DNA of 64,000 nucleotides, taken from contig NC_088297.1 in the NCBI RefSeq assembly GCF_032854445.1, positions 25,725,915 through 25,789,914 of the forward strand. The letters run 5' to 3'. How positions within the stretch are numbered: position 1 is the first letter of the stretch; every line of letters begins with the position of its first letter. This DNA comes from Liolophura sinensis. Its lineage: Eukaryota; Mollusca; Polyplacophora; Chitonida; Chitonidae. The notes beneath the pieces were generated by a model. The model was not told the DNA's origin. It worked only from the letters and a program-made list of their open reading frames with translations, and made no database searches. The translations under genes and the position numbers were made by a program. Positions 1 to 59,203 of this stretch are shown here, piece after piece.

Positions 1-120
1 ATGTCACTGTCCATTCCAATCTCCCACCACACGTGTACGCCGTTGCAGATAAGGCGTACCAGACACTGCGTCTGACAGGTGTCAATCAGTGCTGTGTCGT
101 TAGTGGTGAATCAGGGGCAG
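1..120 (+). CDS. Myosin exon: pre-P-loop and P-loop start
   Basis: The reading frame is open from base 3. It encodes [13 protein letters not shown] followed by the P-loop GESGAG, which is completed by KT in the next exon. The exon ends in phase 1 before GTAAGA. Its 5' end may lie outside the window, so this is a partial exon. Confidence 0.9.
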
Positions 121-3100
121 GTAAGAAAACTTGAGGAGATCATTTAACTTTGTCAGGTTGTACAGGTAATGATTGTCAACATTATGTAACTGCACTGCAG
201 TATTTGTGTCTGGGTTTGAAAAATGCTTTCCTTATTTCTTAATGTTTTTTTATGTTATTTTAATTTCCATTGATTGTAGGTAAAACAGAAACGACAAAAT
301 GGCTTGTCCAGCACATTGTGTTCCAGTGCCGCTATCAAAACTCCAACCTACACACAAGGATTATCCAGGTGAGTGATGATAAAATGCTTTGTCTAGCTAC
401 AGTACTGCCTGATCCTAACGGTATACTGTACACGCATCATCCACCCATCCTACGCACATCTTGATCGGACGCGGGGTGGATCCTGCACAGAACTTGATCG
501 GATGTGCGGCGGATCCTATCCGAATCTTGATCAGATGTGGGGCAGATCGTGCGCAAATTATACGATCATGTTGGGTGGGCCATGCGCGGATGGTGGCACC
601 ATCCTCATTGCATCTTACGCTGATCTTGATCGACCGGTACATGCAGACACGTTTACACCATTTTATGGCACATTAGTCTTTGCCTACACGTTAGCTATAA
701 ACATAACACGATGTATCATCAGTTTGCTTACATGGTGACGAGAAAAGTTTTAGTGAATGGTCTATCACTTGGCCAACTCTCATTCATCTAAGCCAGTAAA
801 AGGGTGATCATAGATGGATGGTACACCCATCTTGACCCTATAATCAGCGTGGGTTGTGAACATCTTCCTGTGATATTACGCCCTTCTTACACGAATGTAC
901 TGGTTCACATCCCAGCCAGATATATCTTTAGGATCAAGCAGAACTGTGCTGTTATCCAGCGTCACCATCAAAACTCCAATCTTAACAAGCATTATACAGG
1001 TGAGTGACCAATTGTCTTGGTTACATCAACACATTTACATGAACATTTTTACACCAAACACATTAATATTAAACATGTTTACATCAAACACATGTACACT
1101 CAGCATGTTTACATCAAACACATTTACACTTAACATGTTTACATCAAACACATGTACACTCAGCATGTTTACATCAAACACATTTACACTTAACATGTTT
1201 ACATCAAACACATTGAATCTCAGCATGTTTACATCAAACACATTTACACTTAACATGTTTACATCAAACACATTTACATTAAACATGTTTACATCAAACA
1301 CATTTACACTCAGCATGTTTACATCAAACACATTTACACTTAACATGTTTACATCAAACACATTTACACTCAGCATGTTTACATCAAACAGATGTAAACT
1401 TACCATGTTCACATCAAACAGATGTAAACTCAGCATGTTTATGCAAACACATTTACACTTAACATGTTTACATTAAACACATTTAACTTAACATGTTTGG
1501 ATCAACAACATTTACATGAAACATGTTGGAAGTTATGAAGTAAGGTACATGTAGGTATTAAAAAGCTTTGCCTGTTTGTTTCTGATTATAAGTTTTGTTC
1601 TGACAACATCCATGAGTTTTTACCAGAATTAAAAGCATATTAATTAACTACAGGTAAATCCTCTCCTGGAGGCGTTTGGCAATGCAGAGACATTGATGAA
1701 TAGAAACTCCAGTCGCTTTGGCAAATTCATAGAACTCTCCTTCACGCAAGATGGCTCCCTATACAGAGGTGGGTTTAGACAACTTATGTGGGTGAATACT
1801 GTGAAAAAATAATTGATAAAACCAGACTTCTCCATTAATTCAGTTATGCAACCTTAAAGTCGGCTAAATGACAGCTCTTGTTGTGTTCAAAACATTGGGT
1901 ATTGATGTGTTTTAAGAAAAAAGAACGCCATACACACATTTGGATATAAATATCCCCTCCCTCCTTCCTCCAATATAGTGTCAACATGACAGCAGTCGGA
2001 TAAGAGAAAAATTCCCACATAAACGGCCAAAAAGAAAGTGAAAAAGGATGCTGATAAAGTCATGTTTGTTTTTATACATTCAGCCAAATTGGACGAGTAT
2101 TTGTTGGAGAAAAGTCGAGTTGTCTCTCAAGGTAAAGATGAGAAAAACTTCCACGTGTTTTACGCCATGTTTGCTGGACTTACCTCCCTTGAGCAGAGAA
2201 AATTGGCATTGGAACCTCCTGACAACTACAGGTATTGCTAATCTTAGCCCTAAACTTAATCCTGTTTAAATTAGAAACAAGCATTTAAATTAATTTTCAA
2301 GTTTTAACTTAAGTCAAAACTGGTTCATGGAATCATAGAAAGTGTAAATTCCCCAAAATGACAGTATTATAACCTGAATGTACTTAAAGGAAAAGGTCTC
2401 CAGAAATCGCAGTAGGCTTCACTAAATAAACCCCTCAAAACTATGCATAAACATGTTTTCATATATTTTTTTAGATTTTTGTGAAAGGAGTTAAAGGTGT
2501 TCCAACATTTGAATTCTAGTTATTCTAAATTCTAGAGTTTAGGAACTCTGATGTCACTGGAAGTTTTTTCAACTTCACAACACTGAATGTTGGATTAACA
2601 CTTTTTACCCAGGAGTAAATGATTACTGAAATAAAATTTCCAAAAATTTCTTCCTTCTGGTTAACAATAGGATAAAAATGATGTGACGTCAGAGTTTCCA
2701 GATAACGTCAGTTTGGCTCACAAAGCCCACCGTAGCAGTCAAATATTTGAATGCCTTTCAGCACTCAAACATCTTGAAAAATAAATGAAAGTATTTGTAC
2801 GCAGAGTTTTCAGTTGTCTGCATGATGAACTTCATATTTTAGCTTTCTTTTACTTTAAACAATATTCTAAAATGACGTCCATCAATCTGCTGTTTTCTGA
2901 GTTTGTCTCGTTTCTGTTCCAGAATACTGCGGTCTCTACGCAGTGGGCCCGTGTTCCCAACAGATGACGTGTACCTGAGCCACAAGGAGCAGTACGCCCA
3001 CCTGTACAGGGTTATGGAGGACGTGGGCTTTAACCAGCAGGTAGGGTACGCTATACCATACAGAACAAATAGAACCATCTACCTGGACTGGCCTGCTATA

Positions 3101-6100
3101 TTTGCGACTTTAGTTTCAAATAGGAAGACAGAATAAACACCCTTTATACCTCATGGTCAAGTTTTCGTCCATACCAAATTATTGTATGCTTTTAACCTGA
3201 CCCTACAACCCGTGTTGCTTCTTACGATGAGGGCAGTCCTGATTTGCTCAGGTTGTGACAAAAGCCACGTTTTCCAACTGAAACAAATCCATTACAAGAC
3301 GTCCATTTAAAACATAGGCTTCATTATGATGTGTTTTAATTTTTACCCTGTATGTTCAGTTGATACTCTGTGATATTTGTCAGTGTATCTCTCATCTTTC
3401 TTTGACATAGTAAGACAGCCATTTAACCACCTGAGCCACCATAGGCAACAAGTTCTCTGATGAATCACAAAATACCGATCTGCCTGTCTGTTGTAGGACA
3501 TCAATATGATATATGCGCTGCTGGCTGCTGTGTTACACGTGGCTAATATAGACTTCATTCCCGAGGAAGATAACGAAGGGGTTTATATTATCAATGAGTA
3601 TGAATTGGACATAGGTAAGGGCTAACGAGTTAAAGGTGACTATCTAATCACTAAATCTGAAAAATTGTTGTCCTAAATAATTCATTGTTTCTGGGGTCTT
3701 GATGTATTTACACGGTTAACAGCACCTATTGGTGTGGTTTTCCATGAAGGTCTCATGTGACAACTTGCCTTTCATGCGAGTGTGTCACATGTGGCCAGGT
3801 TCGTCAGTGATGTTCCAAAGCCCTTTACTTTGCTCATGACCAGGCACTCAGGTTTTTCCACTCATAAAAATGACCCGTATCACATATTTAAGTTGAGAAA
3901 TTCTCGAATAGAACAATGTTAAGCAATCAATCCATCAATCAGGCTACTCAATTAATCGACATGCTAGCCTAGGTTTGTATATAATCATATTCTCAGGTTC
4001 TCAATTGGCAACTGTTACCATAGAACTGAATTCTTTATTTACTGTTGGGTTTAGATTTTCAGTTTTGAGAGAGAGAAGGTTGTGCATTTTCTCCTTTACA
4101 CTTTTTTTTTCTTGACTGTGTGTACATGTATATGAATTGCATTGATTGTATATACAAAGCCCTCACACCATAATGTGGACATTGGTGTTCTCTTGAGTAT
4201 GGCGTAAAACACCAATGAAATAAATAAATATGTAAATAAATATATACATGTATACCTGTGTGTACACTCTGTGTACAAATCTTACTTGTGTTTATGAATG
4301 TGATGAAAATGACAGTTTCCTTAGCAGTGCTTGGGTTGCTTTTCAGCCTCGAGTTTGCTGGGCTTAAATGTGGAGGATCTGATCAACGTGCTGATATCAA
4401 ACACAGCTACAGTGAGAGGTAATTAAGGAACAAATGCTTGTCTAAAGAGTTACAATAACATATACAGTGTTCTAACATTTGATTATTTCACACTTTCACA
4501 AACAGCAAGGAGTACACAAATTAATTTGGAGCTGTCTGTCCGTTAGTTTGTCTGTTGGTTTGTCTGTCTGTTGGTTTGTCTGTCCGTTAGTTTGTCTGTC
4601 TGTTAGTTTGTCTGTCCGTTAGTTTGTCTGTTCAACTTTGATCTCCATGCAGATAATGTCTCTGCAACTATTGACTAATTTTGGTAAAACTAGGTTTGCA
4701 GTTTCATTTCTTGGTCTTTTACGTTTCTATTTAACCTGAACAGATTATTTTGGTTTGAATGCTGTACCTTTTGTTTTTGTTAATGTTCACTTTCAGGGGA
4801 AAGAATCATGAGCATGAAAAATCTCCACCAGGCAAATGATGGGCGTGATGCCCTGGCTAAGGCGGTCTACAGTCGCCTGTTCAGCTGGATCGTCAGGCAA
4901 ATCAACCTCCTGTTGGAACCCTCAGAGGACAGGTAAAGTGGTGGATACAGCATTTCACCTTAAGTTTGCTACATTTTGCTTCACTCTTACTGATTGATCC
5001 ACTATGGAGGACTACTACAGAGTAAACCTCCTGTTGGAACCCTCAGAGGACAGGTAAAACATTGGATACTGCATTTCACCTTAAGTTTGCTACGTTTTGC
5101 TTCACTCTTACTGATTGATCCACTATGGAGGACTACTTCAGAGTAAACCTCCTGTTGGAACCCTCAGAGGACAGGTAAAGTGGTGGATACTGCATTTCAC
5201 CTTAAGTTTGCTACGTTTTGCTTCACTCTTACTGATTGATCCACTATGGAGGACTACTTCAGAGTAAACCTCCTGTTGGAACCCTCAGAGGACAGGTAAA
5301 ACATTGGATACTGCATTTGCCCTTAAGTTTGCTACGTTTTGCTTCACTCTTACCGATTGATCCGCTATGGAGGACTACTTCAGAGTAAACCTCCTGTTGG
5401 AACCCTCAGAGGACAGGTAAAGTGGTGGATACAGCATTTCACCTTAAGTTTGCTACATTTTGCTTCACTCTTACTGATTGATCCACTATGGAGGACTACT
5501 ACAGAGTAAACCTCCTGTTGGAACCCTCAGAGGACAGGTAAAACATTGGATACTGCATTTCACCTTAAGTTTGCTACGTTTTGCTTCACTCTTACTGATT
5601 GATCCACTATGGAGGACTACTACAGAGTAAACCTCCTGTTGGAACCCTCAGAGGACAGGTAAAGTGGTGGATACTGCATTTCACCTTAAGTTTGCTACGT
5701 TTTGCTTCACTCTTACTGATTGATCCACTATGGAGGACTACTTCAGAGTAAACCTCCTGTTGGAACCCTCAGAGGACAGGTAAAGTGGTGGATACTGCAT
5801 TTCACCTTAAGTTTGCTACGTTTTGCTTCACTCTTACTGATTGATCCACTATGGAGGACTACTTCAGAGTAAACCTCCTGTTGGAACCCTCAGAGGACAG
5901 GTAAAGTGGTGGATACTGCATTTCACCTTAAGTTTGCTACGTTTTGCTTCACTCTTACTGATTGATCCACTATGGGGGACTACTTCAGAGTGTTTTGTGA
6001 ACTTTGATTAGTGGCTTATCAGAAAATCATAGATGTAGGTGTTGGCCTGAGATGTATTATATCATGGCCATTATGTGCTTTTGACAGCTGATTTTTACAT

Positions 6101-9100
6101 ATACCAAACTTTAGGTGAAATAGGGTAATGATAATAACACAGTGTGGCTATAATAATAATAACGGTACAAATAATAATAATACAGTATGGTTATAATAAT
6201 AATAACTATACAAATAATAATAATAATAATACAGTATGGTTATAATAATAATAACTATACAAATAATAATAATACAGTATGGTTATAATGATAATAACTA
6301 TACAAATAATAATACACTATGGTTACAATAATAATAGCTATACAAATAATAATAATACAGTATGGTTATAATAATAATAGCTATACAAATAATAATAATA
6401 ACTATAATAATCCAAAATTTTGTTAAAACGTCTCATCCCAATTTTTCTTCTGTAGGCCAGTGGTTGACAAGAGAGATCTTCGGCACATTGGAATCTTAGA
6501 CATGGCTGGATTTGAAAACTTCCCCATCAACAGTTTCGAGCAGCTTTGTATCAACATCGCCAATGAACAGCTTCAGTTCTATTTCAACCAGCATGTGTTT
6601 TCATGGGAGTTTCAGTCGTACCTGAATGAAGGCATCAAGCACCCAAAGATAAAGTACAACAACAACAAGCCTCTGCTGGACCTGTTTTTGGAGGTACATG
6701 TACTGATTTGTGTTTTGTTGCAAAGGATATTGGTTAAGCTCCTTACATTTGACCAAATTGACCCTGAGTTCAAATCCAGCTGTTGCTGACTTAACATTGT
6801 CTTTTGTACACATGCATACCAAGCACAGATATTTCCCTGTCTATCCTATTAAATGATTACTAGATAAAAGAAATGTTCTTGAGCACAATGTTCAAACCAG
6901 TAACACAGACAAATTTGTACATCTAGGATTCTCTCTGATGGTTGCATTGAGACATTGTGGCAGGAGGTTTGTTTCGTTCTGTGCGTGCATTATTTTGTAT
7001 TTTCAAATTCTCAAACCTACACAAAGGTAGATTTCCTTTTATTTTGTTGACGTTGTTGACGAGCAGGTTTTACATGTATTTCAGTGGTAAGGAGGACATG
7101 ACACCCAGCCACCCAGGCACATGAGGTGTGAGTTTAACCCTGGCCTAGGACAGGGAATTTGTAGATTCCCAGCAATCATTGTTTATGATGGTGCGTGGTT
7201 ACCATTGGTAACTTGCCAAATAAATGTGATTTAACTGAGAGACTCTCAAACCCTCGGTTTCCTCCAACCATAAAACTGATTGCTATTGAATACAAGTGAA
7301 AACGGTAAAACTACAATCATATATATATATATAAATGTTTACATGTATTTATGAACAGCGCCCCCTGGGATTGTTCAGCCTTCTAGATGAAGAGTGCAAG
7401 TTTCCAAAATCTACTGACAGCACGCTGGTGGACAAGCTCAACAAGAACCTGACCAAGAGTGCTTACTACAAAAAATCTAAACACAGAGATCTGGCCTTCA
7501 CAATACAGCATTATGCAGGACAGGTAATGAGGAATTCTGGGATTGAATGCATGGGAATGACCTTAGAAAACCTTATCTTTTCTCAGCCAGTTAAGATGGA
7601 TGTACCGTCCACTTACATATTAATTACTAATCATGATTTTGTCATCATTTTATCAATTTATTAGACACTTTTAATTACATATATGGTATCAGTAGTCCTC
7701 CTGCCTCACCCAATATGAAGGTGACTGACACCGTATATTTCTGTATCCTATCACTGAGTAATCATGTAACAAATTTATCCTGCAAAGACCCATCATTTCA
7801 GTGCAGAAGACAGCTTCAGCTACATGTTACCATTGTATTCACAATCCATGGAAGGGAGATAACCAACTCACCAGACATATTTGAGGTTGTCCGCAGGATT
7901 AGAGAATATATCTGCACCCCACGTGACCATTGTTGTCCAATGAAAAGCGGAGTGTTGTGTATGATGTGGGATAAATTCATATACATGTATATAAGACCTC
8001 TGATGGATACACATCAGGCTACATATATGTCCCTTCTAAAAAGTAGAAAATTTTGTATTGAACTATGGGCGACTGATAAATTAATGTAAAAGTGGCCATT
8101 AACAAGATTCCTTTTTATTGCCGGAAGATGAAAGACAGGCAGTCTACATGTAAATCTTATCAAAAGGGATTAAAAGATTCAGCAAGGAACATGTGTTCAC
8201 CAGAGCAAGTTACAAATCAAGTTCAAGTAGAGAGCTGTTTCGTCTGTTCTCAACAAAATTGTGTCCAATTTATTCTGTTCTATTGATGGCTCAAGTCAAG
8301 TGGGGGCATGTATTTCAATAGCTATACATAGAGAATGTTTGCTACTGAAGGATTGTAGGAAGATGGTCAGTATAATCTGTGTGTTTGTCATCCATTTTAG
8401 GTTCGCTACGAAGCTGCAGGTTTCCTGGAGAAGAATCGCGATACGTTAAGTTTGAACCTGATAGATATTCTACAGCGTAGTGCCAGCTGGATCGTACATG
8501 ACCTGTTTACTGCCAGGCTCAGTGATACAGGCACTTTAGATGTCAGGTAGGCACTACTTTGTTTTTACTTTTTGAAATTGTCGAAATAATTTCTTGGTCA
8601 ATGTGACGAAAATAATCTCAATTTCAGATCCACACATTGAAGAGTTTGTGGTACAAATAGTATATTGTCTGAATATACGTATAGAAAAAAAAAAGTCAAA
8701 TTTGGAATATTTCCTGTAAAGCCCTTGGAATTTAAATGGGGCTTTCTCAGTCTCTTCTTTATGAAAAAAAATTTACATTACATGTACATGTAGCTTCTGT
8801 GTTTAATGAGAATGTCTTTCAAACTAAGTATGGGATATACATAAAATATATTTCACTTTTCATTTATTATAAATATCCATTGAGTACTTTTCAAGTGAAG
8901 CATTGGTCATTTTGATTTTAGAGCGTTTGCTCGTGGGAGAAGCAAAGACGCCATCTTGGAATGCAAACCACCGGACATGGCTAAATACGCAGACCAGAGT
9001 TTGTCGCGGAAAGCCAGTAAAAAACTCAAACAAAAGTAAAAATACCCACATAAAAGTTACTTCTTCCACCTCATGGAAAAGTCTCAGATACCTCGTCCAA

Positions 9101-30100: not shown

Positions 30101-33100
30101 TTTGAAAATCCACAACACACGTGTTCAAGGATAATACAGACGAAACAAAGTATTTGTAGGGAAATTCTGTTTAATGAAATAACAAGACCTAGTTTAATTT
30201 TTAAATTGAAACTGGAATTCTTATAATGTACCTGTAGCTTATGTGTAATCAGTTACCCTAAATGACCTAAAAATTCAACAGCAAGAAACATTTTGGGATA
30301 CAAATAAATGTCATAAGGTGTTTCCTGTGGTGCTAAAATTTACATTTCCCAGCTGGACATCACCGTATCTTCCAAACAAACATCAAAACATCTTTTTGAA
30401 ATCAGTAGAACTCCCAGAATCTGGATAAATAGAGCAGCTTAGTCATGTAGGAAATTTTAGGTCATTTAGGGTAAATACAAAGAACACAAGACTGTTACTG
30501 ATTATGACAGCATTCAGGTGTGTAACACCATTATTGATAATGACAGCATTCAGGTGTGAAATACCATTATTGATAATGACAGCATTCAGGTGTGAAATAC
30601 CATTATTGATAATGACAGCATTCAGGTGTGTAACACCATTATTGATAATGACAGCATTCAGGTGTGAAATACCATTATTCATAATGACAGCATTCAGGTG
30701 TGTGAGATTTTGGAATATATAGAGCATCAGCCTCAACAGCCTTTGTCTTTCCTTTTAGGGTTGGTTTGGGGTATTTTAACCACAGCAGGAGGGATGAAGT
30801 CACCAAACGAGTTCGGCACCAGATAGGAAAGGTGAGAGTGACCAGAAATTAAAACCTACAGTCATAACAAAGTGGTCCTCAGTGACATACCAGTAGCTCA
30901 CTTCTAGCACACTATCAGCACACTTACAGCAGGAATTTTATACTCTACTATTCCTGTTCCTTGGGTTCCCAGGTAGTATATACAGTAGAGCTACCTCCCA
31001 GCTGAACCTCCTCTGCCCATCATGGCTCCACGGCCAGTGTATGATGAGCTCACTATGGTGTGCCATCATGGCCAGACCATGCGAGTCTCATTTCTGTGAC
31101 ATTCCATCGTGCATATAGCTGCTACCTTTGTATGATCTTGGAGCGATGGAGTCAGCATGGAATCTCTACAACAGACTCTATCAACTATTTTGATATCTGC
31201 AGATTATTCACTGCAGCCAGTTATGACATCACAGTATCATTCGCCTATATTCCCAATCTGTACAAGCGTGCAAAAATCTACATTGTATTATAGGCCTACA
31301 TGTATATACTTGGTGTAAGCGGACACAATAGTCCCCAGTAGTAGGCTACAAACACTGTGGCTACATTTTGCGTGAAGTTGTTGAGCAGCAAAAAATAGTT
31401 CTTGTCTATGCATGAATACATGGCATATTTGAGGTGAATAATTTCATAACAAACACAGCATGAAAATGGACAAGTTCTATTCAGGATGGCATGATGGTCC
31501 ACCATGTGCAGACGATCATGTCTGGATGACAATGGGGAGTGGAACAAGTCCACGTGTGATGGCTGGACCATACGCGGGTGGTGGGTGTAGGATATTTGGC
31601 TAGAATCCGGCTGTACTGTACATGCCTTATGTTATGCTCACAGTATTTCTATGATACACGTTTGTTTGTGGGAATTATTAGAACGATTTCTGTTGCAGGG
31701 TATTAAGTTACATCAGGCCAATGATGGCAGTATCATGGCCACGCGACTGGGGTACTCAGACGTCATTGTGCAAGGTCATAGGGACCCTCAGAATCATTGC
31801 ATATCAGAGGATGTTGTGGTACAGCGAGGTAGACTTGAGTACAACAGACCTCTGAAGGTACGTCCTCTAGCTACAGTGGGTCAGTTTGCCTACCCTAATA
31901 ATACTGGACATGGACATTTTTACTGCAACAGACATTTTCCCCTACTTAACATTGTTTCCAACAGTGCCCATACCCCAGGCAGCAGACATTTTCCCCTACT
32001 TAACATAGTTCCTAACAGTGCCCATACCCTAGGCAGCAGACATTTTCCCCTACTTAACATAGTTCCCAACAGTGCCCATACCCCAGGCAGCAGACATTTT
32101 CCCCTACTTAACATAGTTCCTAACAGTGCCCATACCCTAGGCAGCAGACATTTTCCCCTACTTAACATAGTTCCCAACAGTGCCCATACCCTAGGCAGCA
32201 GACATTTTCCCCTACTTAACATAGTTCCCACCAGTGCCCATACCCTAGGTAACAGACATTTTCCCCTACTTAACATTGTTCCCAACAGTGCCCATACCCT
32301 AGGCAACAGACATTTTCCCCTACTTAACATTGTTTCCAACAGTGCCCATACCCAGGCAGCAGACATTTTCCCCTACTTAACATAGTTTCCAACAGTGCCC
32401 ATACCCTAGGCAGCAGACATTTTCCCCTACTTAACATTGTTCCCAACAGTGCCCATACCCTAGGCAACAGACATTTTCCCCTACTTAACATAGTTCCCAA
32501 CAGTGCCCATATCCTAGGCAGCAGACATTTTCCCCTACTTAACATTGTTTCCAACAGTGCCCATACCCAGGCAACAGACATTTTCCCCTACTTAACATTG
32601 TTTCCAACAGTGCCCATACCCCACGCAGCAGGCATTTTCCCCACCGGACATTTTCTGCTGCAAACCTTTCCCCCTCCAGAACTTTTAGAACAGACTGGAA
32701 ATTATCTCCCAGTTTAATGTAACATTGTACACATACATCCCAGATATTTTTCCCTTCTTCACATTGTTCCCAACAAACTCCTCAAAAAGGAAGCCCTCAA
32801 CAAACTCCCATTAATCCCACTCAGGCAGTTTATGCTTCAGATATTCTCTCATCATCAACCCTTACATGTATCTAATGTCAAACGGATTCCAGTTGTCAAA
32901 GTGAAATATTCTGACTGGAGTATGTTGTAAAACAACAGTCAAGTGAATAAATAAATTGAAACGTGACATGATCAATTACAGTCAGATTTTCTTGTACTGT
33001 ACCTTTCAGATTTATGACATGAAGGAGTTGAAAAGTCACATGGCGCTGGAAATGAGTCGGGACTTTGTAAACACAGATCGATTGCGTCGACTGAGCATCG

Positions 33101-36100
33101 TTTGCCTCAGCTTCATGACTGATGAGCATGAAGAACTCCAAACACCATGTTGGCTGTGTGTGGTGAACTTTGCAGCATTTGATGCCATTCAGAGTCCCTC
33201 AGGTGAGCGGCTCAAACCCATCCTTGGACACAGAACATTTTATTTTCTTTCTCCTTTCTGTTTGAAACAACAGTGGTGATGAACAGTCAATAATTAACAC
33301 TTTCAGGACTTCTTGCATGAATTTCATATTAGATAACATACCTTAACCCACCTTGATTTGATTTCAGTCTTGTATGCAGGTGGCACGTGGGAAAGTCCGT
33401 CCGTCACATGCCATATGATGGTGGTTAGGGGTTAAGGTGTTTGCCTTTAAATTACTACGATGCACACATAGTGGGTTCAAATCCAGCCTTGAACAGGGAG
33501 TTTGTAGAATTTCTTGCTCCATGTGGGAAAAATTGTTCTGTAACTTGCAAAAACTTCCTTTTCCTGCACTCATAAATCTGACCAAAAGTATGAAAAATTC
33601 ATGAATTTAAAACAACAATGAAATATTGAAATGAACAAATAAATCCTCCAGCCACAAAATGTGACTTCTTTCACACATTCAATTTGGAATTCATTTTAAG
33701 GCGTATATGACCTACACATCATCCATTTATTGTCTTTGTTCTTTCATTTTTTTTATTAGTTTTGCTCAAACCATATTCCATTCCATTGGTAATTATGTAT
33801 ACAAGAATTTGTTTTTTTGTTAGTGCTCAGAGAAATTCGTTCCTCGCTTGTCTCCCTTGTGCAGCGGAAACGTGAAGAGGACATTCTGGAAAAGAATAGA
33901 AAACGAGTGAGCATTTTAGCGATGTATGTTTCGAATTATATACATGTATATTCCCACCTGGGCATGTTGATGTGCTTACATAAATATATCCTTTAAGTGC
34001 ACATGTATTTTAAGGTAATGTTGTCAGCTTCATTATTATACCTGAGCTTCCAGCTGGATTTTACAGGTATGGTCCAGGCAGGTAAATAATCAAAAGGCAG
34101 CATTTCTTCCAACTAATAATATTATAGCATATCAGCAATTTAAGAAAAATGAAAATTAAATGATTTTAAATATTCACTTGTTGCAAACTGTTCGTGAAAA
34201 TTATTCAAAAGAAATGTTGTGAAGCTGTACAGCTAAACTAAGCTCTTGTCGATGTACACTCTTTCAGGAGTCCAGGCCATGGTCCAAGATTGTCCAGCGG
34301 CGCTCAGCGGTCCTAGATGTCCCTAGCAAACCTCAGAAAAAGTCCCGTCAGGTAAACAAAGGTAAGAAGGGGTTTCTGTTACATGTTACCTTTTGGCAGG
34401 TATGAATGTGGACAGAAAAAGTCCTGTGAGGTAAACAAAGGTAAGAAGGGGATTTTGTTACATGTTACATTTTGGCAGATATGAAGGTGGACAGAAAAAG
34501 TCCCGTCGGGTAAACAAAGGTAAGAAGGGGTTTCTGTTACGTGTTACCTTTTGGCAGGTATGAATGTGGACAGAAAAAGTCCTGTGAGGTAAACAAAGGT
34601 AAGAAGGGGATTTTGTTACGTGTTACATTTTGGCAGATATGAAGGTGGACAGAAAAAGTCCTGTGAGGTAAACAAAGGTAAGAAGGGGATTTTGTTACGT
34701 GTTACATTTTGGCAGGTATGAAGGTGGACAGAAAAAGTCCTGTGAGGTAAACAAAGGTAAGAAGGGGATTTTGTTACGTGTTACATTTTGGCAGGTATGA
34801 AGGTGGACAGAAAAAGTCCTGTGAGGTAAACAAAGGTAAGAAGGGGTTTCTGTTACGTGTTACCTTTTGGCAGATATGAAGGTGGACAGAAAAAGTCCTG
34901 TGAGGTAAACAAAGGTAAGAAGGGGATTTTGTTACATGTTACCTTTTGGCAGATATGAAGGTGGACAGAAAAAGTCCTGTGAGGTAAACAAAGGTAAGAA
35001 GGGGTTTCTGTTACATGTTACCTTTTGGCAGGTATGAAGGTGGACAGAAAAAGTCCCGTGAAGTAAACAAAGGTAAGAAGGACTTTCTGTTACATGTTAC
35101 CTTATGGCAGATATGAAGGTGGACAGAAAAAGTCCTGTGAAGTAAACAAAGGTAAGAAGGACTTTCTGTTACGTGTTACCTTTTGGCAGATATGAAGGTG
35201 GACAGAAAAAGTCCTGTGAGGTAAACAAAGATAAGAAGGGGTTTCTGTTACATGTTACATTTTGGCAGATATGAAGGTGGACAGAAAAAGTCCCGTCAGG
35301 TAAACAAAGATAAGAAGGGGTTTCTATTACATGTTACCTTTTGGCAGATATGAAGGTGGACAGAAAAAGTCCTGTGAGGTAAACAAAGATAAGAAGGGGT
35401 TTCTATTACATGTTACATTTGGGCAGGTATGAAGGTGAACAGAAAAAGTCCTGTGAGGTAAACAAAGGTAAGAAGGGGTTTCTGTTACGTGTTACCTTTT
35501 GGCAGGTATGAAGGTGGACAGAAAAAGTCCTGTGAGGTAAACAAAGGTAAGAAGGGGTTTCTGTAATACGTTACCTTTTGGCAGGTATGAGGGGGGACAG
35601 GTATGAAGGTGGACAGAAAAAATCCTGTGAGGTAAACAAAGGTAAGAAGGGATTTCTGTAATACGTTACCTTTTGGCAGGTATGAGGGGGGGATAGAAGT
35701 CCTGTGAAGTAAACAAAGGTAAGAAGGGGTTTCTGTAATACATTACCTTTTGGCAGGTATGAGGGGGGGCAGGTATGAGGGGGGGGGGGGGGCAGGTATG
35801 GTGCCTATATGGTCCATCATGTTATAACTCCAATCCCCTCATAGTTCATGACTGGTATCACATTGAAAATCACAGCTAATAATAATCCTTCCCTGGAAAT
35901 ATTTTGCACAAATGACCAGACAAGATATGTGACGGCTCACTACTTCATGTAGCCTACATGTAGATGTGACGGCTCACTACTTCATGTAGCCTACATGTAC
36001 ATGTGACAGCTCACTACTTCATGTAGCCTACATGTACATGTGACGGCTCACTACTTCATGTAGCCTACATGTACATATGACGGCTCACTACTTCACATAG

Positions 36101-38837
36101 CCTAAATGTACATGTGACAGCTCACTACTTCATGTAGCCTAAATGTACATGTGACGGCTCACTACTTCATGTAGCCTACATGTACAGGTAGCTTACAAGG
36201 ACGTCAGGTCATCTTGTAAAAATTGTTTGTTGGTCACGTTTCAACCCTACCCGTCAGAAGAATTAGTGAGGGCTCAGTTGGGAATTCCTTTCATTTTTTA
36301 AATTTGCCAAGCGGTAATAAAAAAGATATAGGCAGTATTAAAAGAACTGAATGTGGAGAGGGGGAAAAAAAAGGAAGATTTCTATCAAAATCTCAAGATA
36401 AATTTCACAGTACCAGATGTCCCGTGTTTGGAGAATCGGTGATTTATGGCCAACGAGACAAAAAATTATAGTTCAGCTGAAAAGACTGCAGCTATTGTGT
36501 GTATATGAGAAGATTTTGAGCGTTTAGCCAGTAATCTTTAGCAGATCAAAATCTTGGGTCACTTTGATAAAAACTTCAGATGTCATATATTTGGTACATT
36601 TTTGGTAAATAATATTGCCTGTAGGTTATAGTGCCATTGCCAAGAAAACATTGCCTGTAGGTTATAGTGCCATTGCCAAGAAAACTTTGCCTGCAGCTTA
36701 TAGTGCCATTGCCAAGAAAACTAGCCTACAGCTTATAGTGACGTTGCTAAGAAAACATTGCCTGTAGGTTATAGTGCCATTGCCAAGAAAACATTGCCTG
36801 TAGGTTATAATGCCATTGCCAAGAAACATTCCCAGTAGGCTATAGTGCCATTGCCAAGAAAAACTATGGAATATTTATTTATGAAGTTTTGTGCACGTGG
36901 CCAAAAGACTGTCTTTGGTAAACTGAGTGTTCTCATCATAAAAAAATCCCAACATCTTCATACTCAGGCACCAGATGACTGAGCCATGATACATTTATGG
37001 TGAACAAGTGGCTCACGTGCTAAAATCCCTTTTTTTTTCAGCCATTTTAAATCCTGCCAGCCCCAGCCTATCAAAAAGTGGGCAGAACAATGTGACGTCC
37101 AATGACAGCTTTAACTTTCAGAGTTCAAGGGATTTCTTCGCCAATCTAGGTTTGTGTCCTTCTGGTTGAATTTCCATCTGTCTAATTTTCTGTGTGATCT
37201 GATTGTAAATATATTTATGTAACAGGGTGATACATAGCTGCAATCTACCTCTGGGCTGGAGGTAATTTCTCTTCAGGGTAGAAGCGTCGACTCCAAGCCC
37301 AGAGATTGCTGGCTCAAATCCCACGTGATTTACATTTACTTATGTAATTATATTTAAAGATTTTTTTACTGAAATGATGGTGATGAGTTTTATTTTTGGA
37401 AGAAACTGAAGTGCCAGGAGTAAACCATCGACATTTGGCAGACTACTGACAAACATTTCCACATACAGGCGATCTGTGAGGAATATTACACTGTGGAGAC
37501 AGCCACATGAGCAGTGTCAATCACTTTATACTGTACTGTGCCAGGAGTAAACCACCCACCTTTGGCAAGTTACTGACAAACATGTCCACATACAGGCGGT
37601 CTGTGAGGAATATTACACTGTGGAAACAGCCACATGAGCGGTGTCAGTCACTTTATACTGTACTGTGCCAGGAGTAAACCACCCACTTTTGGCAAGTTAC
37701 TGACAAACATTTCCACATACAGGCGATCTGTGAGGAATATTACACTGTGGAGACGGCCACATGAGCAGTGTCAATCACTTTATACTGTACTGTGCCAGGA
37801 GTAAACCACCCACCTTTGGCAAGTTACTGACAAACATGTCCACATACAGGCAGTCTGTGAGGAATATTACACTGTGGAAACAGCCACATGAGCAGTGTCA
37901 ATCACTTTATACTGTACTGTGCCAGGAGTAAACCACCCACCTTTAGCAAGTGAATTGTTGACAAATTTTACCATATTTGTTGAATTGTAAAACAAACTCT
38001 CTTTAGGAAATGTTAGACAGTGCAAATGTGAACAATGGTATAACAAATTTTTTTCAGCATAACAACTTGAGAATGTTTGACTATAGTATACTATGATGAT
38101 TTCTGGCATGTTTGGGTAAGAACTATAGCCCAGCCCTGGAGAGAATTTGAAATATTACATATCATGTTTTTCTGTCAACACCAAGTGGATGGGTGCACAT
38201 ATTTCTGCCATTGTAAAATTTGTATGGTATAAATTTAATATTGCTGGTTGGTGTATTCTGTAACTGTTCGGTGTATTCTATTACTGATTGGTGTATTAAT
38301 ATTACTGGTTGGTGTATTAATATTACTGGTTGTGTATTCTATTACCAGTTAGTGTATTCTATTACCCGTTGGTGTATTCTGTTACTGTTTGGTGTATTCT
38401 ACCAAACTCCAGAATATTTCTTCTGGAGACTGACACCAGTTGAGTGACTGGTGTCAGTCAGGATTTATGGTTGGGCTCAGCCAGAGCTGGGTTTGAACCG
38501 ACAACCTCGGTGATCAGTGCTAGGTGGAGAAACAGAACTGTCCACAGAAGTGTCATTATTAAATGGTCATGGGTTTGGCTGGTGCAGCCAAGTGTGTAAC
38601 ACTAGCATTTTTGTTCATTTGTTCAGAAATTTCTGACAGACTTTATCTGGTACATGCACATTTGAATGAGAAATGTATGAATTATTTTGATTGACAGATG
38701 ATGGGAGGAGCGTGGCACCCTCGGTGATCAGTATCAATCCCCAAGCTCCACGACAAAACTGGGCTAAAGTCAAAGCGCTGCAAAAACTTCAGGAGCAGGA
38801 ATCTGTGGAAAAGATTCAGAAATCTCGGAAAGCTTGA
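1..38837 (+). CDS. Unconventional myosin with MH2-like tail domain (27 exons, 5' partial)
   Basis: Actin-based motor fused to a SMAD-type MH2-like domain. Exons: 1-120, 280-368, 1654-1768, 2084-2231, 2923-3040, 3497-3614, 4347-4418, 4797-4932, 6456-6693, 7359-7523, 8401-8546, 8922-9017, 12449-12518, 13407-13462, 14999-15148, 16522-16633, 17055-17306, 17828-17928, 27714-27822, 29899-30056, 30759-30831, 31699-31857, 33010-33202, 33824-33906, 34268-34361, 37042-37149, 38698-38837. Every junction is GT-AG and the phases chain to 3417 coding bases (1138 residues plus TGA). Visible domains: motor residues 1-649 with P-loop, switch I, switch II, relay and converter; one IQ motif about 674-687; linker to about 803; MH2-like about 818-997; basic tail to 1138. 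The motor looks closest to class III-like myosins from its text (for example [15 protein letters not shown]), which is inference. No kinase domain is visible because the window starts inside the motor. The protein probably acts on actin in the cytoplasm; cargo and class are unknown. Confidence 0.9.
280..368 (+). CDS. Myosin exon: P-loop lysine and following helix
   Basis: Opens with GT after a TTGATTGTAG acceptor and encodes [15 protein letters not shown] then RIIQ, ending in phase 0 before GTGAGT. KT completes the Walker A motif GESGAGKT. A degraded copy of the 3' end of this exon lies at 952-1005. Confidence 0.9.
952..1005 (+). pseudogene. Degraded duplicate of myosin exon 2 end plus donor
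   Basis: The stretch ATCAAAACTCCAA then ATTATACAGGTGAGTGA matches the 3' end of exon 280-368 (ATCAAAACTCCAA then ATTATCCAGGTGAGTGA), with a 2-base deletion between the blocks. The donor GTGAGT is kept. No convincing acceptor or full-length exon is present, so it is most likely a dead partial duplication and not an alternative exon. Confidence 0.55.
1030..1500 (+). repeat. 30-bp minisatellite, about 15 copies
   Basis: Units read like CATGTTTACATCAAACACAT followed by TTACACTTAA, period 30. The array lies in the intron between exons 280-368 and 1654-1768, starting about 30 bases after the degraded exon copy. Because 30 is divisible by 3, both strands stay open; these open frames are not genes. 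Confidence 0.9.
1654..1768 (+). CDS. Myosin exon: switch I
   Basis: Follows the acceptor AACTACAG and encodes [14 protein letters not shown] then switch [11 protein letters not shown], which coordinates ATP phosphates and Mg in myosins. Ends in phase 1 before GTGGGT. All canonical switch I residues are present. Confidence 0.93.
1769..2083. other. Intron with no visible feature
   Basis: Intron of the myosin gene. I see no repeat, SINE or conserved coding segment; it ends in the acceptor TACATTCAG. Confidence 0.7.
2084..2231 (+). CDS. Myosin exon: upper 50K after switch I
   Basis: Encodes [13 protein letters not shown] and [12 protein letters not shown], both strongly conserved in myosin motors. 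Enters in phase 1 and leaves in phase 2 before GTATTG. Confidence 0.93.
2232..2922. other. Intron with no visible feature
   Basis: AT-rich myosin intron without a recognisable repeat or transposon; it ends in the acceptor TTTCTGTTCCAG. Confidence 0.65.
2923..3040 (+). CDS. Myosin exon: upper 50K
   Basis: Encodes [20 protein letters not shown], the motor segment before the ATP-site helix. Enters in phase 2, leaves in phase 0 before GTAGGG. Confidence 0.92.
3497..3614 (+). CDS. Myosin exon: upper 50K helix
   Basis: Encodes [16 protein letters not shown], matching the conserved myosin helix often written as iLaavLHLGNi. Followed by an acidic loop and exit in phase 1 before GTAAGG. Confidence 0.92.
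4188..4240 (+). mobile_element. SINE 3' tail fragment
   Basis: GAGTATGGCGTAAAACACCA followed by ATGAAATAAATAAA is the 3' tail of the common SINE of this window (compare full copy 59590-59846). Intronic fragment; the head is missing. Confidence 0.7.
4347..4418 (+). CDS. Myosin exon: cardiomyopathy-loop entry
   Basis: Short 72-base exon encoding [14 protein letters not shown] and ending VRG, phase 1 to phase 1. Together with the next exon it forms the actin-binding surface loop. Confidence 0.9.
4533..4640. repeat. 16-bp TTTGTCTGTC microsatellite
   Basis: Runs of TTAGTTTGTCTGTCYG and close variants, about 6 copies, in the intron before exon 4797-4932. Confidence 0.8.
4797..4932 (+). CDS. Myosin exon: actin-surface loop and helix
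   Basis: Encodes [12 protein letters not shown], then [17 protein letters not shown], and ends NLLLEPSED plus AG in phase 2. Counting 16 residues back from DALAK gives Glu at the TEDS position, which by the TEDS rule suggests no need for activating phosphorylation there (inference). The last 31 bases and the donor are the seed of the 121-bp array that follows. Confidence 0.93.
4933..5990 (+). repeat. 121-bp array carrying exon end and donor, about 8.7 units
   Basis: Donor-equivalent exon ends fall at 4932, 5053, 5174, 5295, 5416, 5537, 5658, 5779 and 5900, exactly 121 bases apart. Each unit holds AACCTCCTGTTGGAACCCTC then AGAGGACAG and GTAAA, plus about 90 intronic bases that include ACTCTTACTGAT (branch-point-like) and TTCAG or TACAG. 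From that AG to the donor is 33 bases (5021-5053 and every 121 after), which joins in frame to both neighbouring exons. See findings. Confidence 0.95.
6120..6410. repeat. ATAATA-rich imperfect repeat
   Basis: Interspersed AATAATAATA, ACTATACA and CAGTATGGTTATA with a period near 50 bases, about 6 units, just upstream of the switch II exon. Confidence 0.8.
6456..6693 (+). CDS. Myosin exon: switch II and relay helix
   Basis: Largest motor exon. Encodes switch II as [10 protein letters not shown] (DxxGFE intact) and relay [18 protein letters not shown], then [16 protein letters not shown]. Enters in phase 2 and leaves in phase 0 before GTACAT. Catalytically complete. Confidence 0.96.
7083..7300 (+). 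mobile_element. Second SINE-like family, copy 1
   Basis: GTGTGAGTTTAACCCTGGCC resembles a tRNA B box. It is followed by ACAGGGAATTTGTAGATTCC, which matches the same arrangement in the copy at 33419-33645 (ACAGGGAGTTTGTAGAATTT). Likely a tRNA-derived SINE remnant in a myosin intron. Confidence 0.45.
7359..7523 (+). CDS. Myosin exon: lower 50K
   Basis: Encodes [25 protein letters not shown] and FTIQHYAGQ. The run LLDEEC.FP and the HYAG motif are diagnostic of myosin motors; the wording is near class III-like motors. Phase 0 on both sides. Confidence 0.94.
7524..8400. other. Intron with no visible feature
   Basis: 877-base myosin intron. Two open frames occur (7715-8089 and 8092-8286) but they have no recognisable protein text and the flanking exon phases join without them. 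Confidence 0.6.
8401..8546 (+). CDS. Myosin exon: lower 50K after HYAG
   Basis: Encodes [19 protein letters not shown], the standard continuation of the HYAG strand, then [15 protein letters not shown]. Starts in phase 0 and ends in phase 2 before GTAGGC. Confidence 0.93.
8922..9017 (+). CDS. Myosin exon: loop 2 part 1
   Basis: Follows TTTGATTTTAG and encodes [14 protein letters not shown], ending in an ESQ that is completed by the next exon. The donor CCA|GTAAAA was chosen because it ends in phase 2 just before an in-frame TAA and links correctly to exon 12449. Loop 2 is variable in sequence, so homology gives little support here. Confidence 0.7.
9890..10022 (-). mobile_element. SINE, partial, minus orientation
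   Basis: Starts TTATTTATTTATTTGATTGG then GTTTTACGCCGTACG, CCAGCATTATGG and ACCATCCACAGGTTGCTGGG. It is the reverse complement of the SINE at 59590-59846, lacking the tRNA-like head. Confidence 0.8.
10478..10672 (+). mobile_element. SINE, head-truncated
   Basis: Contains GGGAAGGTCTGGCAGCAACC, TTTCCTCCCACCACAATG, and the tail GAGTATGGCATAAAACACCA followed by AATAAATAAA. Confidence 0.8.
10951..11180 (+). mobile_element. SINE with tandemly duplicated tRNA-like head
   Basis: The head GAGGGGGTTAGCATGCCAGT and CAGTGACCCAGGAGCCTC occur twice in tandem, about 52 bases apart. GTGGCCGAGGGGGTTAG fits an A box and GTTCAATTCCAG a B box of a tRNA promoter. The body continues to TTTCCACTCACCAG. The duplicated head is important for the origin of the 48-bp satellite at 19325-27462. 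Confidence 0.8.
11708..12020. repeat. 30-bp minisatellite, about 10 copies
   Basis: Units like GTGTGGGCTACCCGTGTGTG followed by GACTGTCCAC. Divisible by 3, hence open in several frames on both strands; repetitive Cys/Gly/Leu and His/Thr peptides are not evidence of a gene. Confidence 0.9.
12449..12518 (+). CDS. Myosin exon: loop 2 part 2
   Basis: Encodes [15 protein letters not shown] then ASLHFR. The motif before the next exon corresponds to the FR.SL segment after loop 2 in myosins. Enters completing a CAG codon and leaves in phase 0 before GTAAGG, the only donor that keeps the next exon open. Confidence 0.85.
12575..13075. repeat. 35-bp minisatellite, about 14 copies
   Basis: Units read ATAAACCACTCACCTTTGGC then AGGTAAATCCCCACG. 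Each unit contains CAGGTAAAT, a donor-like string, in the intron after exon 12449-12518. I cannot show clear descent from the exon end. Confidence 0.9.
13407..13462 (+). CDS. Myosin exon: SH-helix entry
   Basis: Small 56-base exon encoding [19 protein letters not shown] with the final Arg split. This is the conserved segment right before RCIKPN in myosins. Ends in phase 2 before GTAATC. Confidence 0.93.
13965..14838 (+). repeat. 74-bp array amplified inside a SINE, about 11 units
   Basis: Each 74-base unit contains CCCGGTTTCCTCCCAACATT then ATGCTGGCCGCTGGCGCACA, the internal part of the SINE. The last unit continues into a normal SINE tail, GGAGTACAGCGTAAAACACC and AATCAAATGAATAAA. So the array arose inside one SINE insertion in the intron before exon 14999. 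Confidence 0.88.
14999..15148 (+). CDS. Myosin exon: SH1 region and converter start
   Basis: Encodes [14 protein letters not shown], then [33 protein letters not shown]. This is the conserved actin-proximal and SH helix region. Ends in phase 2 (GACAG) before GTAGGT. The last about 114 bases plus donor are tandemly copied downstream. Confidence 0.95.
15149..16020 (+). repeat. 124-bp array of exon 3' part plus donor, 7 extra units
   Basis: Units are exactly 124 bases (exon-end equivalents at 15272, 15396, 15520, 15644, 15768, 15892 and 16016). Each contains the terminal 114 bases of exon 14999-15148, near-identical, plus GTAGGTTAAT. There is no convincing acceptor in most units. Two units have TTTAGCTC or CTTAGCTC where the exon has CTGAGCTC, but splicing there would hit TAG. 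So these are not usable cassettes. Confidence 0.95.
16522..16633 (+). CDS. Myosin exon: converter
   Basis: Encodes [24 protein letters not shown] and DWQIGKTK, the converter that drives the lever arm. Phase 2 entry completes Arg; leaves in phase 0 before GTGAGA. Confidence 0.93.
16634..17054. other. Intron with no visible feature
   Basis: 421-base myosin intron; no repeat or transposon seen. Confidence 0.6.
17055..17306 (+). CDS. Myosin exon: lever arm IQ motif and Gln-rich helix
   Basis: Starts [12 protein letters not shown] (end of the converter) and then has one IQ-like light-chain site, [14 protein letters not shown], about residues 674-687 of the visible protein. The rest is Gln/Glu-rich and helical, with [16 protein letters not shown], perhaps a short single helix or coiled coil. 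Phase 0 on both sides. Confidence 0.92.
17828..17928 (+). CDS. Myosin exon: linker
   Basis: Encodes [18 protein letters not shown] and [11 protein letters not shown]. No domain recognised. Assigned by the strong TTTTTCAG acceptor, open frame and phase match to both neighbours (0 in, 2 out). Confidence 0.75.
18230..19110. repeat. 30-bp minisatellite, about 29 copies
   Basis: Units read AACTATCCACATTTGAATAA then TCCACGTGTG. Very homogeneous. Open in both directions because of the 30-base period (Tyr-Pro-His-Leu-Asn repeats on +), with no start context, signal or flanking gene structure. Confidence 0.95.
19325..27462. repeat. 48-bp satellite, about 8.1 kb, about 169 copies
   Basis: Units read CAGGAACCTCCCTATGTGAG then TGGTTAGCATTCAGTCTC and AAACTGGCAT, period 48 with occasional 49-base units carrying an extra A. 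Many units contain GTGAGT, a donor-like string. Minus-strand frames are open for up to 320 codons because 48 is divisible by 3. Higher-order structure with a 2550-base shift is visible (for example 21215-21418 versus 23765-23968). It merges into a SINE at its right end. Confidence 0.95.
27450..27690 (+). mobile_element. SINE body continuous with the 48-bp satellite
   Basis: The last satellite unit, GAGTGGTTAGCATACTAACC, reads straight into CAGCACAACC, GAGCCTCTCACCAATGCAGT, GAGTTCAAGTACAGCTCATG and later TATGCTGGTCGCCATCGTAC. This is the normal order of the SINE seen at 59590-59846, so the satellite unit sits where the tRNA-like head should be. Confidence 0.82.
27714..27822 (+). CDS. Myosin exon: Ser/Thr-rich linker before MH2-like domain
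   Basis: Follows TTTCTTTTGCAG and encodes [19 protein letters not shown] then [17 protein letters not shown]. Phase 2 in, phase 0 out before GTAAGA. Its last 51 bases, starting after CCCCTCCAG, are the part copied in the array downstream. Confidence 0.85.
27823..29416 (+). repeat. 97-bp array with exon end, acceptor-like and donor signals, about 16 units
   Basis: Most units contain a pyrimidine tract ending CCCCTCCAG or CCTGCAG, a 51-base segment such as AGACTCACCTCATGCTGCCA through TTCTACCAG, and GTAAGAAATGG. The segment stays 51 bases even where its sequence has drifted, for example the last units encoding [17 protein letters not shown]. Splicing any of them in would add 17 residues in frame. 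A few units, such as near 28200, have lost the donor. Confidence 0.93.
29899..30056 (+). CDS. Myosin exon: MH2-like domain part 1
   Basis: Encodes [18 protein letters not shown], then [22 protein letters not shown]2 domains start with a WC..-Y.E-N-.VGE-F pattern followed by a strand ending VDG; both are matched here in order and spacing. Ends in phase 2 before GTCGGG, a weak donor, chosen because it joins R to the next exon exactly as in MH2 (ER then GLG). Confidence 0.85.
30495..30712. repeat. 36-bp minisatellite, 6 copies
   Basis: Units read GATAATGACAGCATTCAGGT then GTGAAATACCATTATT. Intronic, inside the MH2-like coding region. Confidence 0.92.
30759..30831 (+). CDS. Myosin exon: MH2-like domain part 2
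   Basis: Encodes [19 protein letters not shown] then HQIGK. The MH2 counterpart is the segment GL.sNvnR..t.e.TRrHIGKG; the R-H-x-I-G-K core is preserved. Phase 2 in, 0 out before GTGAGA. Confidence 0.88.
31699..31857 (+). CDS. Myosin exon: MH2-like domain part 3
   Basis: Encodes [20 protein letters not shown] then DVIVQG, matching the MH2 stretch of G-V-x-L-Y, G-x-V-Y-A-x-x-L-S and S-I-F-V-Q-S. Continues with a divergent insert-like segment [19 protein letters not shown]. Phase 0 both sides. Confidence 0.88.
31926..32640. repeat. 54-bp minisatellite, about 13 copies
   Basis: Units read CAGACATTTTCCCCTACTTA then ACATAGTTCCCAACAGTGCC and CATACCCTAGGCAG. Begins about 70 bases after the exon and does not include the exon end. 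Open frames on both strands come from the 54-base period. Confidence 0.93.
32899..32960 (+). mobile_element. SINE 3' tail fragment
   Basis: GTGAAATATTCTGACTGGAG then AAACAACAGTCAAGTGAATA matches the tail of the common SINE. Confidence 0.6.
33010..33202 (+). CDS. Myosin exon: MH2-like domain part 4 (C-terminal core)
   Basis: Encodes [18 protein letters not shown], then [17 protein letters not shown] and [20 protein letters not shown]2 has the same order: i-fn-e-F--lL, then CtiRmSFvKGWG, then tPCWiEi-l--plqwLD. TPCW is exactly retained. Phase 1 exit before GTGAGC. Confidence 0.9.
33419..33645 (+). mobile_element. Second SINE-like family, copy 2
   Basis: Has TGGTTAGGGGTTAAGGTG and GTGGGTTCAAATCCAGCC (B-box-like), then ACAGGGAGTTTGTAGAATTT. 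Shares the 3' arrangement with 7083-7300 and differs from the common SINE. Confidence 0.5.
33824..33906 (+). CDS. Myosin exon: basic tail helix
   Basis: Encodes [18 protein letters not shown] then DILEKNRKR. Positively charged, probably helical, just after the MH2-like domain. Phase 1 in, 0 out before GTGAGC. Confidence 0.82.
34268..34361 (+). CDS. Myosin exon: basic tail
   Basis: Encodes [18 protein letters not shown] then [11 protein letters not shown]. Two donors are possible, CAG|GTAAAC at 34351 and AAG|GTAAGA at 34361. Only the second (phase 1) keeps the next exon open; the first would give an immediate TAA. The exon end and both donors are repeated in the array that follows. Confidence 0.8.
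34362..35800 (+). repeat. 79-bp array carrying exon end and donors, about 18 units
   Basis: Units hold GACAGAAAAAGTCCTGTGAG, GTAAACAAAGGTAAGAAGG and TGTTACCTTTTGGCAG. The last is acceptor-like, so each unit resembles a 41-base exon, but 41 is not a multiple of 3 and the frame meets TAA. The right end degenerates into poly-G (14 G near 35781-35794). Copy number includes partial units. Confidence 0.93.
35925..36188. repeat. 37-bp minisatellite, 7 copies
   Basis: Units read GTGACGGCTCACTACTTCAT then GTAGCCTACATGTACAT. Intronic, period 37. Confidence 0.93.
36615..36868. repeat. About 37-bp minisatellite, about 7 copies
   Basis: Units read CATTGCCTGTAGGTTATAGT then GCCATTGCCAAGAAAA. More diverged than the neighbouring arrays. 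Confidence 0.88.
37042..37149 (+). CDS. Myosin exon: Ser/Asn-rich tail
   Basis: Follows CTTTTTTTTTCAG and encodes [20 protein letters not shown] then [13 protein letters not shown]. Low complexity, likely disordered. Phase 1 both sides. Confidence 0.78.
37411..37935. repeat. 127-bp array, about 4 copies
   Basis: Starts of GTGCCAGGAGTAAACC at 37411, 37538, 37665, 37792 and 37919 are exactly 127 apart. Includes CCACATACAGGCGATCTGTG and ATTACACTGTGGAGACAGCC. Intronic. Confidence 0.93.
38240..38405. repeat. About 20-bp repeat
   Basis: Repeated GGTTGGTGTATTAATATTAC and GGTGTATTCTATTAC words, about 8-9 copies, in the last intron. Confidence 0.8.
38698..38837 (+). CDS. Myosin terminal coding exon and stop
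   Basis: Follows TTGATTGACAG and encodes [20 protein letters not shown] then [19 protein letters not shown] and TGA at 38835-38837. Helical, charged C-terminus. Phase 1 entry matches the previous exon. There is no SMAD-like SSxS tail. Confidence 0.85.
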
Positions 38838-58690: not shown

Positions 58691-59203
58691 TACTTTAATT
58701 TGCTGGTTTACTAGAAATACATGTAGCTATAAATAATGGAAAATGAGGGCTGAATTCTTTTCTTTCTTCGCTGTGTTCGGTTTGATGCTAATGTCCCATG
58801 CGATAAACTTTTTCTGCTCCGAATGAAAATATAATACCAAGTAATTTCCTGTCTTTAAAACAGAATAAGTTCACATTTAGACCTTGAGCACTGCTTTTTC
58901 TGAAACCATTTTCCAGATTTAAATTAATTACAGTCTAGTTTTTATTCATTAAGAAACCGGGAATTTGCTCCATGTCCACATATATAACATTGGCATAGCT
59001 ACTTAGTCCTTAATAAATATTATATTTCAACTTTGCATTCAAGAGGTTTACTTGTAACCGCGAGTAAGCCGACAATGACGTCATAATAAGTTTCACTGGC
59101 GGCACCACATTAAACAGAGCGAGGCATGTTTCTAGTTTGATGCCAGAATAAAATCTTAAAAATGCATTGTATATAGACCGATTTTGACCACGACAAGGAT
59201 ATC
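58640..59203. promoter_or_regulatory. Divergent promoter region
   Basis: Lies between the minus-strand reductase leader and the + strand start at 59204. TATAAATA occurs on + at 58728-58735. No other defined element can be assigned, and whether it drives the + gene is inference. Confidence 0.4.

Follow-up and report, generated by a model that had tools for sequence, protein, structure and literature searches.

The closest described relatives of the gene treated here are myosins with an MH2 tail, the myosin-chitin synthases, and the fly proteins Expansion and Rebuf. Kollmar and Muhlhausen grouped the MH2-tailed myosins of Ambulacraria as class 80 and noted orphan myosins of lophotrochozoans with the identical domain order, which, in the parts of their 2017 paper available to us, are polyphyletic and either sister to class 36 or grouped with it (PMC5583752). 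Sebe-Pedros et al., in the accessible portion of their text, described choanoflagellate and sponge myosins with a C-terminal MH2 and suggested that MH2 had begun on myosins (PMC3942036). The tail of the class-36 myosins is a chitin synthase, and the synthase motors were placed by Zakrzewski et al. with myosins III and XVI (PMC3942024, in part).

Expansion belongs to a different literature. Its structure, according to the available sections of PMC4388265, has neither a positive patch nor the surface through which SMADs trimerise (sections 3.3.2–3.3.4), has an L3 loop of 11 residues versus 17 in SMAD, and possesses an N-alpha segment that is reported to block trimers. In flies, Expansion, Rebuf (Exp/Reb), and their N-alpha-MH2 are required for Kkv chitin export (excerpts of PMC9894549).

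The window analysed is a stretch of 64,000 nucleotides from the chiton Liolophura sinensis. A gene model was built manually from the window plus the 18.9 kb that precede it and was then checked by script. It comprises 27 exons on the plus strand (contig C3:25709620-25764751), with 26 of its 26 junctions GT-AG and in phase, and it gives 1135 codons followed by a stop; exons 1 and 2 and the first 18 bases of exon 3 lie 5′ of the window. Except for the first two, the exons are listed by window position:

Exon 1, C3:25709620-25709727, plus strand: with exon 2, about 14.8–16.3 kb upstream of the window
Exon 2, C3:25711018-25711083, plus strand: with exon 1, at that same upstream distance
Exon 3, 1..120 (true start 18 bases earlier), plus strand: motor, P-loop GESGAG; Pfam Myosin_head covers 8-686 of the model
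Exon 4, 280..368, plus strand: motor, remainder of the P-loop, KTETTK
Exon 5, 1654..1768, plus strand: motor, switch I
Exon 6, 2084..2231, plus strand: motor
Exon 7, 2923..3040, plus strand: motor
Exon 8, 3497..3614, plus strand: motor
Exon 9, 4347..4418, plus strand: motor
Exon 10, 4797..4932, plus strand: motor, glutamate 16 residues before DALAK (TEDS site)
Exon 11, 6456..6693, plus strand: motor, switch II DMAGFE and relay helix
Exon 12, 7359..7523, plus strand: motor
Exon 13, 8401..8546, plus strand: motor
Exon 14, 12449..12518, plus strand: motor, loop 2 region
Exon 15, 13407..13462, plus strand: motor
Exon 16, 14999..15148, plus strand: motor, RCIKPN and SH helix region
Exon 17, 16522..16633, plus strand: motor, converter
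Exon 18, 17055..17306, plus strand: end of motor and one IQ-like motif, under the Pfam cut-off
Exon 19, 17828..17928, plus strand: linker without a domain, placed by splice sites and phase only
Exon 20, 27714..27822, plus strand: linker; the match to the N-alpha helix region of Expansion starts in its last residues
Exon 21, 29899..30056, plus strand: putative N-alpha segment and start of MH2
Exon 22, 30759..30831, plus strand: MH2 (73 bases)
Exon 23, 31699..31857, plus strand: MH2
Exon 24, 33010..33202, plus strand: end of MH2, short L3 loop
Exon 25, 33824..33906, plus strand: basic C-terminal tail
Exon 26, 34268..34361, plus strand: basic C-terminal tail
Exon 27, 38698..38837, plus strand: end of tail and stop codon

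The earlier note on this DNA had read a complete-looking motor joined to a SMAD-type MH2-like domain. Its four MH2 exons (29899-30056, 30759-30831, 31699-31857, and 33010-33202) stand, being bordered by AG and GT and joining in frame both among themselves and to the motor exons upstream, and so does its end point, 38837, where the stop codon finishes. The motor is complete in the 27-exon model, where the full Myosin_head is found, but not within the window, since exons 1 and 2 and part of exon 3 lie upstream. Likewise, one gene model does join a motor to a domain of the MH2 family, but this domain is not of the SMAD type. There is no internal stop in the real exon order, whereas none of 1000 shuffled exon orders left the frame open, and a chance chain of splice sites was rejected on this basis.

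A Pfam scan of the 1135-residue model gave Myosin_head at 695 bits over all 679 profile positions and MH2 (PF03166) at 90 bits (E 2.4e-25, residues 853-1018), so that the search of the joined exons proposed in the earlier note yields a significant match in the whole protein. In scans of the first, third, and fourth of the MH2 exons by themselves, the open frame of the first scored 26 bits, just above the Pfam cut-off of 25, that of the fourth reached an E of 0.02, and the third had no Pfam family at E ≤ 1. The IQ match is weak, at 13.9 bits against a cut-off of 20.3. The P-loop (GESGAGKT, residue 100), switch I (150), and switch II (DMAGFE, 385) are intact, and the residue at the TEDS site is a glutamate. 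The last 105 residues are basic, with 27 K+R versus 12 D+E. No MH1 match was obtained in the model at E 1 (Pfam), and the protein ends in KSRKA, with no SSxS tail, which agrees with what had been said of both features. The Pfam scan of the model also gave no chitin synthase domain, unlike the class-36 myosin-chitin synthases. The gene is single-copy in the genome: a search with its own MH2 returned six matches, namely its four MH2 exons and two weak SMAD exons.

To what does this MH2 belong? Of the solved structures, 4r9p (RE28239p) matches best, at 110.5 bits, versus 48.2 bits for the best SMAD; we take 4r9p to be Drosophila Expansion, an identification made through the subject of the structure paper, PMC4388265, of which a part was available. 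When seven MH2 domains were compared all against all, those of the myosin and Expansion were reciprocal best matches at 109–110 bits (32% identity over 190 aligned residues), whereas the scores were 14–49 bits between the myosin and the SMADs and 6–31 bits between Expansion and the SMADs. In a tree of these seven taxa, the split that separates the myosin and Expansion from the SMADs had a support of 99.8/100, which was unchanged without the N-alpha and L3 columns; there is only one Expansion sequence in this tree, and long-branch attraction is therefore possible. Lengthening the query extends the Expansion match by eight residues at its start, into the end of exon 20, which supports the splicing of exon 20 to exon 21. 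In 4r9p the match sets in at position 36 of the chain, which means that it spans the N-alpha region (the residue numbering is inferred), and the N-alpha segment of the myosin aligns to that of Expansion along its whole length in the sequence alignment. Finally, both the myosin and Expansion have an L3 loop six residues shorter than that of SMADs, without KGWG.

The SMADs of the chiton itself provide a further comparison. Besides the myosin, four genes with a SMAD-type MH2 were found (C2, C8), one each like 6/7, 1/5, 4, and 2/3, these names being assigned by sequence resemblance; the MH2 of the SMAD 6/7 lies within a single exon. The L3 motif KGWG..Y.R is kept in all four of them, and SMAD-type phospho-binding by the myosin tail, in which this loop is missing, was rejected. 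One intron of the myosin MH2, between PLK and IYD, is identical in position and in phase (0) to the intron between YIK and VFD of the chiton's SMAD4 (L005); the introns near IGKG in its SMAD1/5 and SMAD2/3 are near misses and not identical to those of the myosin MH2. This shared intron may be an ancient MH2 intron, and shared introns are graded here as weak evidence. The likeness to SMADs consists in the MH2 family and this one intron of SMAD4, and the differences consist in the absence of MH1, of the L3 motif, and of SSxS. The likeness to Drosophila Expansion and Rebuf, on the other hand, includes the best sequence match, a putative N-alpha segment, and a shortened L3 that lacks the SMAD motif; the difference is that Expansion is motorless and carries the domain at its N-terminus, whereas here the domain follows a motor. 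On these sequence comparisons, the SMAD reading of the tail should be replaced by an Expansion reading: the SMAD-type domain proposed in the earlier note is not upheld by the scores, nor is its suggestion of phosphorylated partners, given that the SMAD phosphate-binding L3 loop is missing, as it is in Expansion. No stand-alone gene of the Expansion type was found in this genome, and the myosin tail is the only Expansion-type MH2 found in it.

The motor points in a related direction. Within this genome, its sister group consists of three motors that are linked to chitin synthase genes, with supports of 98.2/99 and 98.6/100 under two models when 16 other loci and three PDB myosins were included, and of 98.1/94 once the tree took in every one of the 19 other motor loci found (3 of the 19 were left out of the first tree and the AU test and were added in the later tree, in which the motor rows are partial, with 64 to 368 of 368 columns). 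This census of motors is a lower bound, 65 of 213 and then 62 of 151 candidates having been scored. Each of the three sister motors is followed, on its own strand, by a Chitin_synth_2 match, at a distance of about 8, 12, and 54 kb, and none was found within 100 kb of the other 16 motor loci; the link of the 54-kb motor to its synthase is drawn from distance and the tree alone. For five alternative placements of the motor, the AU p values are 0.017, 0.006, 3e-28, 0.0001, and 0.043, so that the four placements elsewhere are rejected (p ≤ 0.017), while nesting beside one chitin-synthase motor has a p of 0.043. For the same five, the SH p values are 0.12, 0.08, 0.07, 0, and 0.32; this stricter test fails to reject four of the five (p 0.066–0.32) and is not decisive. 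By plain identity the chitin-synthase motors do not stand out: they are 48.9–51.4% identical to the MH2-myosin motor, versus 50.5% for C8_33.92M and 49.5% for C4_1.23M. Switch II reads LDM[AS]GFE in the MH2-myosin motor and the three chitin-synthase motors (4 of 4) but in none of the 17 others covered (two loci are uncovered); its methionine was rejected as an exclusive mark, the very divergent motor C10_15.37M also having LDM. Together with this shared motif, the position as nearest motor relatives in the genome makes up the likeness to the class-36 myosin-chitin synthases, from which the gene differs in its tail of N-alpha-MH2 and a basic stretch.

The gene very probably encodes, as judged from its sequence, an actin-based motor neighbouring class 36, followed by a light-chain site, a linker, an Expansion-type N-alpha-MH2, and a basic tail. 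The motor-MH2 architecture is already published and is not new. The suggestion in the earlier note, which could name no myosin class with this layout, that it is either poorly described or new is contradicted by the class-80 myosins and the lophotrochozoan orphans, as given in the available parts of PMC5583752. The chiton gene shares with these a motor, a C-terminal MH2, and a motor that stands beside the class-36 motors; class 80 proper has so far been described from Ambulacraria, and the likeness here is one of layout, the motor tree comprising one genome and three PDB myosins. As far as the accessible portion of their paper goes, Kollmar and Muhlhausen draw no connection between this MH2 and Expansion. 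Three points were not found in the literature among the matches listed, which are mostly open-access: that the tail of an MH2 myosin is of the Expansion type, that the motor of an MH2 myosin is sister to chitin-synthase motors within one genome, and that no stand-alone Expansion-type gene is found beside an MH2 myosin. Myosin, MH2, and chitin synthase were found together only in Kollmar and Muhlhausen and in Sebe-Pedros et al., and the word myosin is absent from the Expansion and chitin texts PMC4388265, PMC9894549, PMC4305360, and PMC12431666.

An Expansion-like tail on a chitin-synthase-like motor suggests a role in laying down chitin. The motor would move along, or anchor to, the actin of the apical cell cortex, and the N-alpha-MH2 would act as in fly Expansion and Rebuf, that is, as a monomeric protein-interaction module that neither binds phosphate nor forms SMAD trimers. 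The motor would thereby bring this module to, or hold it at, the actin-rich apical membrane where the chitin synthases on the sister motors would work, and the module may help to organise the synthase at the membrane so that completed chitin leaves the cell; one sister motor would carry the synthase and the other the export partner. The whole chain is put forward tentatively, at somewhat less than an even chance, and the mechanism is its uncertain step. Several fly results weigh against it: Reb was not found to contact Kkv physically, the two mostly occupy complementary apical areas, and the N-alpha-MH2 on its own shows no activity (all from the available parts of PMC9894549); moreover, Chs2, the synthase of the gut, has no need of Exp/Reb (PMC12431666, in part). 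The position of the domain also differs, N-terminal in Expansion and C-terminal of the motor here.

The strongest rival to the chitin role is a myosin that carries cargo or serves as an anchor and uses its Expansion-type MH2 to bind non-chitin partners, such as trafficking proteins or receptors; it would then resemble Expansion in fold and ancestry only. This is likewise put at somewhat less than an even chance, hardly above the chitin chain. MH2 myosins occur in Ambulacraria, a choanoflagellate, and a sponge, and hence more widely than in the animals that make cuticle (available parts of PMC5583752 and PMC3942036); Rebuff mutants have trafficking defects of a luminal protein (PMC6176944, in part); and the myosin MH2, being nearer to SMADs (≤49 bits) than Expansion is (≤31), may keep older binding habits. 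However, the nearest motors in this genome are chitin-synthase motors and the nearest match of the tail is a chitin-export factor, which are two independent pointers towards chitin.

Another possibility is that there are two genes or transcripts, with the motor ending after exon 18 or 19 and an Expansion-like gene running from exon 20, which offers a methionine some 30 residues ahead of the N-alpha segment. No domain is recognised in exon 19, the intron that follows it (9.8 kb) is full of tandem repeats, and Expansion stands alone as a protein, its N-alpha-MH2 at the N-terminus (PMC4388265, sections available). Yet the junction between exons 19 and 20 is in phase 2, with the frame open to the stop, and the joined layout is published for lophotrochozoans and Ambulacraria (in the accessible text of PMC5583752), which makes two genes improbable. 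From phase, order, and this published architecture, we infer that the motor and MH2 exons are probably in a single transcript.

Least credible, and disfavoured to the point of being very improbable, is a module of the SMAD type, forming oligomers or binding phosphorylated or receptor-type partners: the MH2 family match is significant and the MH2 motif order is retained, but the phosphate-binding L3 is missing where four of four of the chiton's SMADs have KGWG, the putative N-alpha segment is of the kind reported, in the part of PMC4388265 available, to block trimers in Expansion, and Expansion is ahead of the best SMAD by 62 bits.

The sequence around the exons is rich in repeats. The 3′ ends of exons 10, 16, 20, and 26, with their splice donors, are tandemly repeated into the next intron (arrays at 4904-5991, 15034-16024, 27750-29422, and 34334-35762, with periods of about 121, 124, 97, and 79), and the repeated donors are possible decoys. 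The window contains 24 donors and 24 acceptors of the gene, of which 4 and 0, respectively, fall inside the 15 arrays taken; these arrays cover 18176 of 38837 bases, and gene junctions are therefore under-represented in them. The intron between exons 19 and 20 is filled by about 168 copies of a 48-base unit (at 19361-27458), and the long minus-strand open frames in this repeat are probably artefacts of it. None of four further open frames in the window had a Pfam match exceeding the cut-off. The plus-strand open frames at 59177-59464 and 60190-60636, likewise without such a match, partly resemble coding exons of a neighbouring gene.

As to where Expansion came from, the old animal form may have been a motor with an N-alpha-MH2, kept in this lophotrochozoan, and Expansion and Rebuf would then be a myosin tail that lost its motor in ecdysozoans, with synthase and export factor on twin motors. 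This is a rather unlikely scenario as matters stand. It fits the occurrence of MH2 myosins in a choanoflagellate and a sponge (PMC3942036) and in Ambulacraria and lophotrochozoans (PMC5583752, both in part), and that of Expansion orthologues in arthropods and nematodes (accessible parts of PMC4388265 and PMC4305360); the conclusion of the structure paper also names molluscs and annelids, without giving a gene in the sections available (PMC4388265). It also fits the start of the N-alpha-MH2 core near a phase-0 exon border in the MH2 myosin, and it is in keeping with the failure to find a stand-alone Expansion-type gene.

The MH2 domains of the published MH2 myosins have so far been filed as SMAD-like. 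Reading the tail as Expansion-type would tie together three literatures, those on function-orphan myosin classes, on an insect chitin-export factor, and on the myosin-chitin synthases of molluscs and annelids. Both this reading of the tail and the chitin-synthase side of the motor are worth following up, as they offer a testable guess as to where Expansion came from and another as to how chitin export may couple to actin in shell, radula, or chaeta.
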